From a virus: a DNA stretch of 29,145 nt. A program made the position numbers and the translations under genes. The stretch is taken from IMG/VR virus record IMGVR_UViG_3300003321_000470, positions 1 to 29,145 of that record; one strand, given 5' to 3'. Each line of letters opens with the position of its first letter. Position 1 is the first letter of the stretch. The notes under the pieces were generated by a model. The model had not been told where the DNA came from. It worked only from the letters and a program-made list of their open reading frames with translations, and did not search any database. Shown in pieces: positions 5,811 to 21,838 of this stretch.

Positions 5811-5940
5811 AGGGGTTAACCCTCGGTTGCACAGTTGCACAGTTTGCACAATTTTTCTCTAATTATCGCTATAAACTAAAAAAATCATCTATATATAATA
5901 AAAGGGGAAAAAACTGTACATCTGGAACAACTGTGCAACT
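5811..5940. other. Putative replication origin: iterons and AT-rich tract
   Basis: Three direct copies of an 8-mer lie at 5827-5834 (TTGCACAG), 5835-5842 (TTGCACAG) and 5844-5851 (TTGCACAA). An exact inverted copy, CTGTGCAA, lies at 5931-5938, and a 6/8 match in the same inverted orientation at 5914-5921. Between them 5851-5913 is almost pure A+T in a roughly 65% GC genome (for example TATATATAATAAAA). GGGTTAACCC (5813-5822) is a palindrome just before the first copy. Repeats flanking an easily melted tract next to a P4-type primase-helicase match the origin layout known for phage P4; the repeat sequence itself differs. Confidence 0.55.
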
Positions 5941-10427: not shown

Positions 10428-12101
10428 GTGCCGCGCGCCCGTGTCGACCCGAAGCCCCAGGCCCTGTTCGACCGCCGCCTCGGCGGCGACCGGGCGGTCA
10501 AGGATCTGCAGGGCAAGCTCGACGAGCTGGGCTTCGCGCCGCCCCCGATCAAGATCCGCCGGACGGACATCGTGAACGAGCTGGTGATCAAGAACACGCC
10601 CCTCGACGAGCTGTACGACAAGCTCGCGGGCTTCCGCGACAACCCGACCGGCTTCGTGCACTGGGCCTTCCCGTGGGGCGAGCCAGGCACGGATCTCGAG
10701 GACAAGGAAGGCCCCGAGCCGTGGCAGCTCGATCAGCTGAATCGCATCGGCGAGGCCATCCGCGCAGGCGGCTCGGCTGGCTGCGTGATCGAGGAGGACG
10801 TCGCGTCCGGTCACGGTGTGGGCAAGTCGGCGCTCGTCTCGTGGATCGTGCTCTGGGCGATTTCGACGGCCGCGGACACGCGCGGCGCGGTCACGGCCAA
10901 CACCGACACGCAGCTCAAGCAAAAGACCTGGGCCGAGCTGACGAAGTGGTACAGCATCTTCATCGCGAAGAAGCTCTTCAAGCTCACGGCCACAGGCATC
11001 ACGATCGCCGATGACGACGAGCGCGCGAAGAAGTGGCGCATCGACGCGGCGCCCTGGTCGAAGGAAAACACCGAGGCCTTCGCCGGCTTGCACAACCAGG
11101 GCAAGCGCATCCTGATCATCTTCGATGAGGCCTCGGCCATCGACGACAAAATCTGGGAAGTTGCGCGCGGCGTGTTGTCGGACGCGAAAACCGAAATCGT
11201 CTGGCTGCGCTACGGCAACCCGACGCGCACGAGCGGTGAATTTTTCAAGCAGCACTCGAAGGGCTCGGAGTCCAACGAGCGCGGGAACATGGTCCACACT
11301 TCGGTTCGAGTGGACTCGCGCTGCATCAGCTTCACGAACAAGGAAGAGCTGCAGAAGCTCGTCGACGAGTACGGCGAGGACTCCGACTTCGTGCGCGTGC
11401 GCATCAAAGGCATGTTCCCGCGCGCGGGCTACGACAACTTCATCGCCCCGGGCACGGTCACGGAGGCCCGCCGGCGCAGGCTCGACCCCTACGTCTACCA
11501 GGCGCACCAGCTGATCATGTCGATCGACCCGGCGCGCTTCGGCAACGACTTCACGGTCGTCACGGTGCGGCAGGGCCTGCGCGTGCACTACCAGGTGGCC
11601 CTCGCCGGCTACGACGGTCCGGCCGCCTCAGGCAAGGTGCTCGAGCTGCACCGCAAGCATGGTGGGCAGATCGCAGCGATCATCTACGACGCGATCGGCA
11701 ACGGCGCCGACCTCGATTCGGCGCTGCGCCGCATGCAGGTCGCGCTCGGGGCGACCGTGCTGGTGCCGGTCATGTGGAATCAGCCGGCGAAAAATTCCGA
11801 CGAGTATTTCAACCAGCGCTCCGAGGCCTGGGGGAAGATGAAGGAATGGCTCGAGCACGGCTGGATCCCGGACGATGACGACCTCGGCGACCAGATTTCG
11901 AGCCTTCTGTACGGATACGACGCGCGCATGCGCATCCAGCTCGAGTCGAAGAAGGATGCGCGCAAGCGCGGCATCAAATCCCCGGACAAGGCCGACTCGC
12001 TGGCGCTGTCGTTCCTCGTCGACCTGATCGACCGCAAGACGACGACCGCCAAGGTACGGCCGGTGCGGCAGCGCCGCGTCATCTGGACGCAAACCCGCTG
12101 A
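10428..12101 (+). CDS. Terminase large subunit
   Basis: This gene encodes 557 residues from GTG 10428, one base after the preceding stop. It is the ATP-driven DNA-packaging motor and headful or site-specific nuclease. ATPase motifs: Walker A GHGVGKS (128-134), Walker B ILIIFDE (D233, E234) and coupling motif GNPTRTSGEF near residue 263. RNase H-like nuclease motifs: SIDPARFG (D367), IIYDAIG (D421) and DKADSLAL (D520, D523). All expected catalytic residues are present and length is normal. It docks on the portal protein, whose gene follows after a 248-base gap that looks like an RNA gene rather than a simple spacer. Confidence 0.93.
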   Translation: MPRARVDPKPQALFDRRLGGDRAVKDLQGKLDELGFAPPPIKIRRTDIVNELVIKNTPLDELYDKLAGFRDNPTGFVHWAFPWGEPGTDLEDKEGPEPWQLDQLNRIGEAIRAGGSAGCVIEEDVASGHGVGKSALVSWIVLWAISTAADTRGAVTANTDTQLKQKTWAELTKWYSIFIAKKLFKLTATGITIADDDERAKKWRIDAAPWSKENTEAFAGLHNQGKRILIIFDEASAIDDKIWEVARGVLSDAKTEIVWLRYGNPTRTSGEFFKQHSKGSESNERGNMVHTSVRVDSRCISFTNKEELQKLVDEYGEDSDFVRVRIKGMFPRAGYDNFIAPGTVTEARRRRLDPYVYQAHQLIMSIDPARFGNDFTVVTVRQGLRVHYQVALAGYDGPAASGKVLELHRKHGGQIAAIIYDAIGNGADLDSALRRMQVALGATVLVPVMWNQPAKNSDEYFNQRSEAWGKMKEWLEHGWIPDDDDLGDQISSLLYGYDARMRIQLESKKDARKRGIKSPDKADSLALSFLVDLIDRKTTTAKVRPVRQRRVIWTQTR

Positions 12102-12114
12102 ACCGTGCTACGCT

Positions 12115-12336
12115 CGCACTGCCCCTCAACGGCAACAGGTTCCAGGATTGGGAATAGAGCGAACGGCGCCCTTGCGGCGCCGTTCCAATCTGCGTAGACT
12201 GCCGAAAGACTTGGCGGTCCCGCTACCGACATGAGTAGCCAACGTAGACGCGTGAAAATGGACGCGGGAGCCTTGAAATGTAAGCCGTGAGCTGCCGAAG
12301 TCCCTGAAACCCGCCCTCGTGGCGGGTTTCTTGCTT
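12115..12336 (+). ncRNA. Candidate structured RNA between terL and portal
   Basis: The 248-base gap has no credible reading frame but dense pairing. Hairpin A is a perfect 10-bp stem (12161-12170 with 12176-12185), extended by GATTG/CAATC (12146-12150, 12186-12190). A long-range helix of 11 pairs with one bulge joins 12208-12218 to 12291-12302 and encloses CCCGC/GCGGG (12219-12223, 12264-12268). An intrinsic terminator ends it. CTGCCGA occurs three times (12199, 12292, 12340) and CGTAGAC twice (12193, 12243). A weak extended -10 (TGCTACGCT, 12106-12114) could start it. It could also be only a structured mRNA leader. The class is unknown to me. Confidence 0.4.
12306..12336 (+). terminator. Intrinsic terminator before portal gene
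   Basis: GAAACCCGCC (12306-12315) and GGCGGGTTTC (12321-12330) make a perfect 10-bp stem with loop CTCGT, followed by TTGCTT. It lies 20 bases before the portal ATG, inside what should be one late operon, and so implies a new start, read-through or antitermination. Confidence 0.7.
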
Positions 12337-12349
12337 ATACTGCCGAGCC

Positions 12350-14536
12350 ATGACCAATCCTCTCGTCCAAGTCGTTGGCCTGCAGGAGCTCATGAAGCGA
12401 GAGCAGGAAGCGCCGCCGAAGGTCAAGGACCTGGACGGCGATGCGCTGGAATCTGCGCTCGCGGGTCATTTCCGTTTGGCCTGGAGCCACAACAAGCTCG
12501 GGCGCTTCCGGATCGAGGAGCAGTTGATCCGCGACCTGCGCGCGCGCCGCGGCGAGTACGGCCCGAGCGAACTCGGGCAGATGCAGCAGGCGAACAATGG
12601 CGGCCTGAACATCGTCTGGGCGCCGCTCACCGAGACGAAATGCCGCGCCGCGTCGGCCTGGATCCGCGAGATCGTGCTGCCCGTGGGCGAGCAGCCCTGG
12701 GGCGTCGATCCGAGTCCACTGCCCGACCTGCCCGAGCCGGTGAAGAAGACGATCGTGGCCTCGGCGGTGCAGCAGGCGCAGCAGGTCATGCAGCAGGCCT
12801 ACGCCGCGGGCGGGGGCATCCCCGGCCCGGGCGAATTCCGTGACATGGTCATCCAGCTCGGAGAGAAGCTGAAGGATCAGGCCGAGAAGGGCATCACCAA
12901 GTCGGCCAAGGAGCGTGCGCAGCGCATGGAGCAAACGATCGGCGACCGGCTGATCGATGGCGGCTACTACGAGGCGATGGACGCCTTCGTCGAGGACTTC
13001 GTCACCTACCCCGCGGCGCACCTGAAAGGCCCCTTCTACACGAACAAGACGATGCTCGAGTGGGGGCCGAACTGGGAGGTGCAGATCAAGACCGTCCCGG
13101 TGCAGACGTGGAAGCACGTCTCGGCCTTCGACGCCTATCCGGCGCCGGCCGCCACCTCCCCGCAGCGCGGCAACTTCATCGAGCGCGAGCGCTATCGCCG
13201 CGACGAACTCGCCGCGCTGCGCGGACTGCCCGGGTACAAGGACGACCAGATCAATGAGTGCCTCGAGCAGTACACGAACGGTCACCTCGAGGCCTGGCTC
13301 TGGACAGAGTCGGAGCGGCAGCGCCTCGAGCAGCAGACCACGTGGTGCTGGCTGTCGCCGCCGGGCGTGATCGACGTCCTGAACTGCTGGGGTTCGGTGC
13401 CCGGGTGGAAGCTCAAGTCCTGGGGCGTCGAGGGCATCGACGACGAGTACAAGGACTACGAATGCAACGTCATGCTCTGCGGACGCTTCGTGCTCTACGC
13501 CGCGCTGAATCCGCACCCGCTGAACCAGCGGCCGTACCACAAGGCGTGCTACGACGAGATCCCGGGCGCGTACTGGGGGCGCTCGATCCCCGGCCTCGCG
13601 CGGTCCGCACAGCAGTTCTGCAACGCCGCCGCGTGCTCGCTCGCCGACAACCTGTCGATCGCGAGCGGGCCGCAGGCGTGGGTGCACACCGACCGGCTGG
13701 CCGACGGTGAGCAGTCGCTCGAGCTGTTCCCGTGGAAGGTCTGGCAGCTGAAATCCCAGGCCGACCAGGGCACGAACCCGGGCGTGGGTTTCTTCCAGCC
13801 CGACGATCGCTCGGAAAAGCTGCTGAAGGTCTACGAATTCTGGGAGAACAAGGCCGACGACGCCACGGGCATTCCGCGCTACACCTACGGCAACGAGAAC
13901 GTGGGCGGCAGCGCGGACACGGCCTCGGGCCTGTCCATGCTGATGAACAACGCGGCCAAGGGCTTGCGGCGCGCGATCTCGTCGATCGACCTGAACGTGA
14001 TCGCGCCCACGATCAACCAGACCTTCGTCTACGAAATGATGTACAACCCCGATCACTCGATCAAGGGGGACAACGTCATCGTGCCGCGCGGCGCGGCCGC
14101 GATCCTGATCCGCGAGTCGGCGCAGCAGCGTCGCCTGCAGTTCCTGACCCTCACGGCCAACCCGATCGACGCCCCGATCATCGGTCAGCGCCACCGCGCC
14201 GCGCTGCTGCGGCAGACCGCGGCCGCGCTCGAGCTGCCCGTCGACGAGGTGGTGCCGAGCGACGAGGAGATCCAGGCCAACATGGCGCAGGCCGCGCAAC
14301 AGCAGCAGGCGATGATGCAGGCCCAGATGCAGGCTCAAGCCCAGAAGGAAGCCGCGATCTCGCAGCGCGAGTCGAACGCGCAGTCCACGCAGGCCATCGC
14401 CGATATCGTCAAGGCGGCGATCACACAGGCGATGCAGTCGTCGAAGGGCCAGGGCGGCAACCCGCTCGCCCTTCTCGGGGGCAGTGGCGCCGCCGCGCCC
14501 GCCACGGCCCCTGCCCCTGAACCGGCGCTCGCCTGA
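12350..14536 (+). CDS. Portal protein (head-tail connector)
   Basis: This gene encodes 728 residues from ATG 12350. There is no Shine-Dalgarno site; a -10-like TATACT (12336-12341) stands eight bases before the ATG, as it does before the gene at 16724. The protein has the position (directly after the large terminase) and size of podovirus portals. It has a mixed alpha/beta body with an acidic N-terminal wing, a segment near residues 375-430 (HPLNQRPYHKACYDEIPGAY, then GLARSAQQF) and a Gln-rich coiled-coil C-terminus (residues about 640-690) like the barrel of long portals. The dodecamer is the DNA entry and exit ring of the capsid. The assignment rests on context and overall pattern. Confidence 0.85.
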   Translation: MTNPLVQVVGLQELMKREQEAPPKVKDLDGDALESALAGHFRLAWSHNKLGRFRIEEQLIRDLRARRGEYGPSELGQMQQANNGGLNIVWAPLTETKCRAASAWIREIVLPVGEQPWGVDPSPLPDLPEPVKKTIVASAVQQAQQVMQQAYAAGGGIPGPGEFRDMVIQLGEKLKDQAEKGITKSAKERAQRMEQTIGDRLIDGGYYEAMDAFVEDFVTYPAAHLKGPFYTNKTMLEWGPNWEVQIKTVPVQTWKHVSAFDAYPAPAATSPQRGNFIERERYRRDELAALRGLPGYKDDQINECLEQYTNGHLEAWLWTESERQRLEQQTTWCWLSPPGVIDVLNCWGSVPGWKLKSWGVEGIDDEYKDYECNVMLCGRFVLYAALNPHPLNQRPYHKACYDEIPGAYWGRSIPGLARSAQQFCNAAACSLADNLSIASGPQAWVHTDRLADGEQSLELFPWKVWQLKSQADQGTNPGVGFFQPDDRSEKLLKVYEFWENKADDATGIPRYTYGNENVGGSADTASGLSMLMNNAAKGLRRAISSIDLNVIAPTINQTFVYEMMYNPDHSIKGDNVIVPRGAAAILIRESAQQRRLQFLTLTANPIDAPIIGQRHRAALLRQTAAALELPVDEVVPSDEEIQANMAQAAQQQQAMMQAQMQAQAQKEAAISQRESNAQSTQAIADIVKAAITQAMQSSKGQGGNPLALLGGSGAAAPATAPAPEPALA

Positions 14537-19917: not shown

Positions 19918-20559
19918 ATGGCGCTCACGGCCAACACCATCGTGGCGCGGGTGCGCCAGACGTTGCTCGATCCGGCGCCGGGTGGCACCTGGATCGATGA
20001 CGAGCTGATCGCGCACCTGAACGCCGGGATCGCGCAGCTGATCGCGCTCAAGCCCGATGCACTGCCGACCGAAACCGACGTCGTGATGGTGGCTGGCGTG
20101 GCACAGTCGTTGGGCACCAACGGCGTCCTGTTCATGGACTGCCTGCGCAACGCGGCCGGCAACAAGGTCACGGTGCAGCCGATCCACGAATTCGTGCGTG
20201 TGCGCGCGGGCTGGGCGCAGGACGCCCAGAGTGCCAACACCGAGTACGTGCTGTTCGATCCGCGGCTTCCACGCACGTTCTGGGTCTACCCGCCCGCCAT
20301 ATCGGAGACGCACCTCCCCGTGCTCCAAGGCACGCAGCCGGCGCGGGTGGCCGCGCTTACGGATCCGATCGGCGTGCCCGATCAGTGGGAGTCGGCGCTC
20401 TGGACGTACGTCGTCGCGTGTGCGTACGCGAAGGACGGCACCCGTCAGGATCTCGAGAAAACTCGCGAGTTCATGAAAATGTTCACGGACTGGATCAACG
20501 CGAACACGCAAGTGGTTCGCGCGATGGGAGCGAAGTCCGACATCGAAGGCCGGCAATGA
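19918..20559 (+). CDS. Neck/adaptor protein, copy 1 of 3
   Basis: This gene encodes 213 residues, with GGAGGTG before ATG 19918. The layout is that of head-tail adaptors: an N-terminal helical part (WIDDELIAHLNAGIAQLIAL), a beta-rich middle (EYVLFDPRLPRTFWVYPPA) and C-terminal helices (YAKDGTRQDLEKTREFMKMF). The next gene is a clear paralogue, about half identical by eye, with the shared blocks NGVLFMDC, VTVQPIHEFVR and VLFDPRLPR; the one after is a more distant relative. I relate it to DUF6682-type podovirus proteins. Such proteins form the ring joining portal and nozzle. Its stop overlaps the next start (ATGA). Confidence 0.72.
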   Translation: MALTANTIVARVRQTLLDPAPGGTWIDDELIAHLNAGIAQLIALKPDALPTETDVVMVAGVAQSLGTNGVLFMDCLRNAAGNKVTVQPIHEFVRVRAGWAQDAQSANTEYVLFDPRLPRTFWVYPPAISETHLPVLQGTQPARVAALTDPIGVPDQWESALWTYVVACAYAKDGTRQDLEKTREFMKMFTDWINANTQVVRAMGAKSDIEGRQ

Positions 20560-21200
20560 CCCTCCAAGCCTCCGCCATCATCACGCCCGTGCGCGCGACG
20601 TTGCTCGACGCCACGGGCGTGACGTGGACGGACGCCGAGCTGATCGGTTACCTCAACGCGGGGGTGACGCAACTCGTGGGCTTGAAGCCGGACGCCAACT
20701 CCGTGGAGAACGACGTCGACCTCGTGCCAGGCGTCGCGCAGGCACTGCCGGCCAACGGCGTGCTGTTCATGGACTGCATCCGCAATTCCACGGGCAACCG
20801 GGTCACGGTGCAGCCGATCCACGAGTTCGTGCGCACGCACCCGACCTGGGCGCGTGACGCCGCCGACATCAACACGGTCTACGTGCTGTTCGATCCGCGG
20901 CTGCCGCGCAACTTCTGGGTGTGGCCGCCGGCCCCGAGCGACGACGGCATGCATCTTCCAGTGATGTACGGCGCAACGCCCACGCGCATCGCGGCGCTCA
21001 CGGATGAAATTGGCGTCCCGGATTACTGGGAGTTCGCGCTGGGGGCTTTCGTGCTCGCGCGGGCCTACGCCAAGAATTCGAGGCGCCACGACATCGTGAA
21101 GTCGAAAGAGTTCATGGACCGGTTCCTGACCCTGGTTGGCGGCACGACGCAGACCGAGCGGCTGATGGCAGGCCGGGCCGACGTGGAAGGCAAGCAATGA
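20556..21200 (+). CDS. Neck/adaptor protein, copy 2 of 3
   Basis: This gene encodes 214 residues from ATG 20556, overlapping the previous stop by four bases. It is the close paralogue of the gene upstream: WTDAELIGYLNAGVTQLVGL, NGVLFMDCIRN, VTVQPIHEFVR, VLFDPRLPRNFWVWPPAPS and ALTDEIGVPDYWE all align without large gaps. Both copies are intact, so each is probably used; they could form mixed or stacked rings, or one may be a spare under divergence. The neighbours are all neck and tail genes. It overlaps the next gene in the same ATGA manner. Confidence 0.72.
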   Translation: MTLQASAIITPVRATLLDATGVTWTDAELIGYLNAGVTQLVGLKPDANSVENDVDLVPGVAQALPANGVLFMDCIRNSTGNRVTVQPIHEFVRTHPTWARDAADINTVYVLFDPRLPRNFWVWPPAPSDDGMHLPVMYGATPTRIAALTDEIGVPDYWEFALGAFVLARAYAKNSRRHDIVKSKEFMDRFLTLVGGTTQTERLMAGRADVEGKQ

Positions 21201-21838
21201 CCACGGTTGCCGACATCATCGTCACGGCGCGCGAGCGGCTGTTCGACCCCGGCAGCGGTGCCGGGTGGACGGATTCCGAGCTCACCGACTACCTGAACCG
21301 CGCGCAGCAGCGCATCGCGTTCCTGAAGCCGGACGCTTACTGCGTGCATGGGAATATCGCGCTCGTGGCCGGGATCGTGCAGACGCTTCCCGCGGGCGCC
21401 GTGGCGCTGATCGAGCTGGTGAAGAATTTCGCCTCCGGCCGCATCATCGAGCAGGTCGATTTCGATCTGCTGAAGGCCTCGGACTGGTACTGGCCGGCTG
21501 GCACCGCGGCCACGTCCGTCGAGTGCTACGCGGCCGATCCGCGCGACCCGCTGAAGTTCTACGTCTCGCCGCCCGCCGCGGTGGGCACGCTCGTCGAAGC
21601 GGTCTACGGCCTGGTGCCCCCGCTGCTCACGCTCACGACGCAGGCGATCGTGATCCCCGACAGCTACATCCCGACGTTGGTCGACGGGATGCTTGCGCAG
21701 GCCTGGGGAAAACCGTCCGCGCGGCAGGACCCGAGCAAAGCCACCTACCACCAGCAGCTGTTCGACGCGGCGCTCGGCGTGAAATCCAAGGCCCAGTTCT
21801 CGTGGGCGCCCAAGGTCGGCCGGAGTCCGGATCAATGA
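21197..21838 (+). CDS. Neck/adaptor protein, copy 3 of 3 (divergent)
   Basis: This gene encodes 213 residues from ATG 21197, overlapping the previous stop by four bases. It keeps the family pattern of its two neighbours, with N-terminal GWTDSELTDYLNRAQQRIAF, LKPDA, a VAGIVQTLPAG strand, a beta middle (DPRDPLKFYVSPPA) and C-terminal helices, but lacks the shared FMDC and PIHEFVR blocks. Of the three it looks most like the single-copy version I know from related podoviruses, so it may be the ancestral adaptor, with the two upstream copies being extra. It is followed by a fourth, unrelated-looking neck gene. Confidence 0.7.
   Translation: MTTVADIIVTARERLFDPGSGAGWTDSELTDYLNRAQQRIAFLKPDAYCVHGNIALVAGIVQTLPAGAVALIELVKNFASGRIIEQVDFDLLKASDWYWPAGTAATSVECYAADPRDPLKFYVSPPAAVGTLVEAVYGLVPPLLTLTTQAIVIPDSYIPTLVDGMLAQAWGKPSARQDPSKATYHQQLFDAALGVKSKAQFSWAPKVGRSPDQ

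Follow-up and report, generated by a model that had tools for sequence, protein, structure and literature searches.

The lambda late promoter PR' makes a short, terminated 6S RNA. In phi29, the packaging RNA (pRNA) has the gross layout of a closing helix with two hairpins, and formation of the pRNA ring requires loop–loop complementarity of at least 4 nt. The phi29 pRNA bridges the ATPase and the portal, and initiation of packaging requires it (PMC7617512). Lambdoid prophages carry the small RNAs (sRNAs) AgvB and AsxR at moron sites, insertion-tolerant places in the late region where the cargo differs among related phages; these sRNAs lie downstream of PR', are 51–60 nt long, have a conserved 3' part and bind Hfq (PMC4104026). 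Such moron-site sRNAs are the nearest described situation to the one reported here, although the RNA we predict lies between terL and portal, measures ∼130 nt and has no relative that we could find. A limited search of the literature revealed no described RNA at the terL–portal position.

The window, i.e. the whole stretch of DNA analyzed (29,145 nt), is a 29-kb IMG/VR virus record. Its terL–portal gap spans 248 nt (12102–12349), bounded by the gene for the large terminase, terL (10428–12101, plus strand; phrog_2), and the portal gene (12350–14536, plus strand; phrog_332/phrog_1216, Pfam SU10_portal). The true start of terL may be internal, e.g. at 10503. A TerS/TerL pair of the classical type is encoded by the phage. 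The initial annotation held the gap to be devoid of reading frames, and this was borne out: there is no plus-strand frame of at least 60 aa, and the longest has 30 codons. We rejected a 19-codon frame (12231–12290; MSSQRRRVKMDAGALKCKP), which lacks both a good ribosome site and any relative, and tblastx against all loci gave nothing convincing for a remnant of a protein gene. Related phages include contigs binned in one Rubrivivax MAG and one Chromatiaceae MAG, which hints at Gram-negative hosts. Elsewhere in the window, three related genes in tandem (19918–21838) each match the structural-protein family phrog_399. A very AT-rich stretch (5858–5918), containing TATATATAATAAAAGGGGAAAAAA, adjoins the primase gene in this genome of 66% GC, and is possibly a strong promoter or an origin.

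Two perfect 10-bp hairpins are present in the gap, both as initially annotated. The first is the inverted repeat GAACGGCGCC-cttgc-GGCGCCGTTC (12161–12185, plus strand), which has no T tract and overlaps the –35 position of a candidate promoter, P1; it is possibly an operator or an upstream hairpin. The second (12306–12330), with a 5-nt loop and a T-rich tail, forms an intrinsic terminator (12306–12335, plus strand), so that the predicted RNA unit has a terminator of its own, as looked for in an accessory RNA. When the gap was shuffled with its dinucleotides preserved, even a single perfect 10-bp hairpin turned up in only 8 of 3000 sequences, which argues that neither of the two arose by chance. 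The entire gap is more stable than its shuffles (z = –3.66). Similar terminators, of the form CCCTGAAR-CCCGCC, are present in relatives.

The gap holds two –10 hexamers that the first reading overlooked, at 12195 and 12336; they set an RNA unit apart from a promoter for the portal gene. P1 (12173–12200, plus strand) consists of TTGCGG (–35; 12173–12178), 16 nt, and TAGACT (12195–12200). Its –35 element is weak, matching the consensus at three of six positions, and a strict promoter scan does not call P1; its –10 element belongs to the class TA[CGT]ACT, which is strongly enriched in the gaps of relatives, on the plus strand only. From TAGACT, the RNA would start at about 12207. The portal promoter, P2 (12336–12349, plus strand), comprises TATACT (12336–12341) followed by 8 nt to the portal ATG. 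TA[CGT]ACT occurs four times on the plus strand of the 29-kb window, and two of these copies fall within the 248-nt gap. Because the hexamer classes were picked after inspection of the gap sequences, and such hexamers are in any case avoided in GC-rich coding DNA, the strand contrast within gaps is the better control: in the gaps of 66 relatives, the density of TA[CGT]ACT is 0.75/kb on the plus strand but 0.03/kb on the minus strand. In the flanking terL and portal genes (175 kb), the plus strand has no copy at all, and YATAAT shows the same pattern (0.95 versus 0). The distance from the pre-portal hexamer to the ATG is 8 nt in 21 of the 66 relatives and 7–11 nt in most other matches with short spacing. 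With a spacing of 8 nt, the portal mRNA would have little or no leader. The sequence TGTGCATAA/TGTGGATAA, found at the site of the portal promoter in several relatives, also resembles a DnaA box.

The predicted small RNA (12207–12335, plus strand) is ∼130 nt long, both ends being placed from P1 and the terminator. This P1-to-terminator length is better supported than the ∼220 nt proposed earlier, which is probably too long. In the MFE fold of a transcript from 12207, an 11-pair closing helix joins 12208–12218 (GACUUGGCGGU) to 12291–12302 (GCUGCCGAAGUC, one base bulged) and encloses two predicted 5-bp hairpins with 8-nt loops, hairpin 1 (12222–12239; loop CGACAUGA) and hairpin 2 (12249–12266; loop GAAAAUGG), all on the plus strand. 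The closing helix begins one base after the predicted transcript start. The long-range helix of the initial annotation is thus recovered as the MFE pairing of this transcript, but an equally strong helix was found in 16 of 300 shuffles, making it only marginally better than chance. For the body lacking the terminator (12207–12305), z is –0.92, and 34 of 200 shuffles were equally stable. When transcription reads in from upstream, an alternative three-way junction (12189–12248; 7 + 9 + 5 bp) is preferred and reuses the same strand: nucleotides near 12210–12219 can pair upstream (12198–12206) or downstream (12291–12302), and the two folds are mutually exclusive. Folding predictions therefore make the long-range structure plausible, as one that the RNA can form rather than one demonstrated.

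In line with the claim that the RNA is undescribed, an Rfam scan matched no family. Homologues of the window RNA were not recovered by blastn and nhmmer against the terL–portal loci, by BLAST of phage records, or by an exact 18-mer search of IMG/VR, which returned no second record. We also scanned IMG/VR with a helix descriptor (GACTTGGCRG-N58-88-CYGCCGAAGTC); its two matches both lie within coding genes and were discarded. With a covariance model of the RNA, 80 loci gave no match, and 300 genomes from the same order as the L120-bearing Rubrivivax MAG gave a single weak one, L344. L344 was rejected as a homologue: hairpin 1 is missing, terL and portal are not nearby, and ∼0.1 such matches are expected by chance across the whole search.

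We then compared the locus across relatives, a check that the initial annotation had proposed. Searching IMG/VR and bacterial genomes with TerL and portal yielded >300 loci, from which, after de-duplication, 78 junctions were compared (the window and 77 others; portal identity at least 52%). The terL–portal distance ranges from near zero (a few nt) to about 2.2 kb. One caveat here is that several negative distances may be artifacts of how the terL stop was assigned (visual inspection showed this for L058), and hence the count of very short gaps is approximate. Short gaps established directly measure 8 nt (L121), 29 nt (L080), 40 nt (L078), 42 nt (L108 and L225) and 43 nt (L086). Terminators of good score are present in 29 of the 78 gaps, compared to 2.4 expected from shuffles, and some gaps hold short units with a terminator. 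What fills the slot varies: some gaps carry tRNA genes, others small genes of the HNH type or of other kinds, others again unrelated structured RNAs, and some are empty. Frames of >100 aa occur in about 30 gaps, some of them HNH-like as judged by eye. The slot tRNAs are specific for Ala (L041, L043), Met and Pro (L068), Pro (L101) and Met (L307), with one undefined (L104), and a TA[CGT]ACT-type hexamer lies a few nucleotides upstream of the tRNA gene in L041, L043 and L101. These genes share place and strand with the window RNA, although neither ARAGORN nor Rfam detects a tRNA in the window.

Two comparisons of close relatives are informative. First, L042 has an RNA-like sequence closed by a 9-bp helix in place of the tRNA-Ala of L041 and L043, while the promoter and the downstream flank are the same. 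Second, L056 has a cassette of promoter, RNA and terminator that is missing from the otherwise similar L058, which retains the portal promoter; the RNA of this cassette was not found elsewhere in the L058 record. These data indicate that the slot is optional and its content replaceable. Presence or absence at a fixed place with intact flanks, as looked for in an accessory RNA, is thus seen for the slot, while the exact RNA of the window is known from one record.

Other RNAs in the slot deserve mention. An RNA family without a name occupies L063 (5501–5593), L075 (3428–3526), L081 (4584–4682) and L082 (1516–1614). Its members have a common core, CCGAAGGAMACGGA ... GCTGGCGAGGGTWTCGYTGCCACGC, and variable stems, and the closing helix seems, by eye, to be changed on both sides; there was no Rfam match, and a pattern scan of IMG/VR retrieved these phages only. 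Small cassettes follow terL in the gaps of L217, L288, L313, L094, L052, L017 and L263. Their RNAs include a stretch complementary to a ribosome site and its start codon, e.g. CCATGGTTTGNCYTCCTTGA, and may be anti-Shine-Dalgarno RNAs or, alternatively, short antisense genes; the relatives' own records showed no clear trans targets. L070 (4569–4825) and L088 (4530–4859) have in common an 8-bp closing repeat, TTGCACAT/ATGTGCAA, around two hairpins of different sequence, and single-sequence folds favor other pairings.

Taken together, the gap is most likely a self-contained, insulated accessory RNA gene, probably trans-acting, with the portal transcribed separately, a reading to which we assign a probability of roughly 0.55. 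A host-type promoter, P1 (–10 TAGACT at 12195), would start a transcript near 12207; this transcript would fold round the closing helix and end at the intrinsic terminator near 12335, giving a discrete RNA of ∼130 nt. The terminator would insulate the RNA unit from the structural operon, and the portal would be transcribed anew from P2, whose TATACT stands 8 nt 5' of the ATG. During infection, the RNA would then most likely act in trans, as an optional regulator or decoy, rather than in DNA packaging. The activity of P1, the exact ends of the RNA, its fold and its action in trans are all things we infer from the sequence. Because the slot is filled variously or empty in relatives, the RNA is probably an optional accessory and not part of the packaging motor. 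Points against this reading are the weak –35 element of P1, the z score of the RNA body and the negative homologue search.

Alternatively, the gap may be no more than a boundary element, where terL transcripts are terminated and portal transcription restarts, the stretch between being decayed cargo or spacer and the RNA a functionless by-product. Such a boundary seems to us rather unlikely, but it is a serious rival, since the RNA body lacks unusual stability or conservation: it folds at chance level and no conservation was found. In addition, cargo is freely gained and lost in the slot, and the gaps of L046, L050 and L086 contain the portal promoter and little besides. What a boundary does not need is a second promoter hexamer within the gap, placed at the start of the closing helix and of a class otherwise absent on that strand of the flanking genes.

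A cis-acting leader of the portal gene, the other role suggested initially, fares worse, and we regard it as improbable. Here, transcripts from P1 or from upstream would be attenuated at the terminator, with controlled read-through into the portal and head genes in the style of the lambda late promoter; the agent of read-through could be a protein, a put-like fold or a switch between two competing structures. The order of elements (promoter, short leader, terminator, structural genes) fits this scheme and recalls PR' and 6S RNA, where a promoter and a short structured transcript with a terminator likewise precede the late genes. The two exclusive pairings of 12210–12219, with 12198–12206 or with 12291–12302, could supply the switch. 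However, in contrast to PR', a conserved portal promoter, P2, with its recurrent 8-nt spacing to the ATG, follows the terminator here, and relatives dispense with the RNA unit: the cassette-free L058, L050 and L086 keep that promoter alone, and tRNA genes can occupy the same place. A leader is therefore not favored. The L056/L058 difference, together with the very short gaps, argues against obligatory leader control and equally against an essential packaging RNA.

Finally, a phi29-like packaging RNA bridging portal and terminase, the analogy first drawn from the position between terL and portal beside the packaging functions and extended here by a gross layout in which a closing helix encloses two hairpins, is very improbable, because an RNA of the motor should be conserved with it, and yet none is present in relatives with similar TerL and portal (TerL 48–62% identical; gaps of 8–46 nt or other cargo), no packaging-RNA family of Rfam was matched even at E values up to 10, TerS and TerL are both present and ordinary, and the loops CGACAUGA and GAAAAUGG are complementary over 3 nt only (CAU/AUG) in a fold that is itself uncertain. 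Of the separate RNA first proposed, then, a discrete terminated unit is likely, while a role in packaging is not supported and one as a portal leader is not favored.

The accessory RNA reading replaces the packaging-RNA story with a testable one, built on a fixed slot between terL and a near-leaderless portal promoter. We further speculate, with considerable doubt, that this phage group keeps an exchangeable RNA-cassette slot, in which unrelated and undescribed small RNAs perform one infection task, e.g. host take-over. If true, the RNA of the window would be one of several slot RNAs that serve a common task in infection. The slot of this little-studied phage group collects small RNA genes, several of which match no described family, and this makes the terL–portal junction a good place to seek phage-encoded regulatory RNAs.
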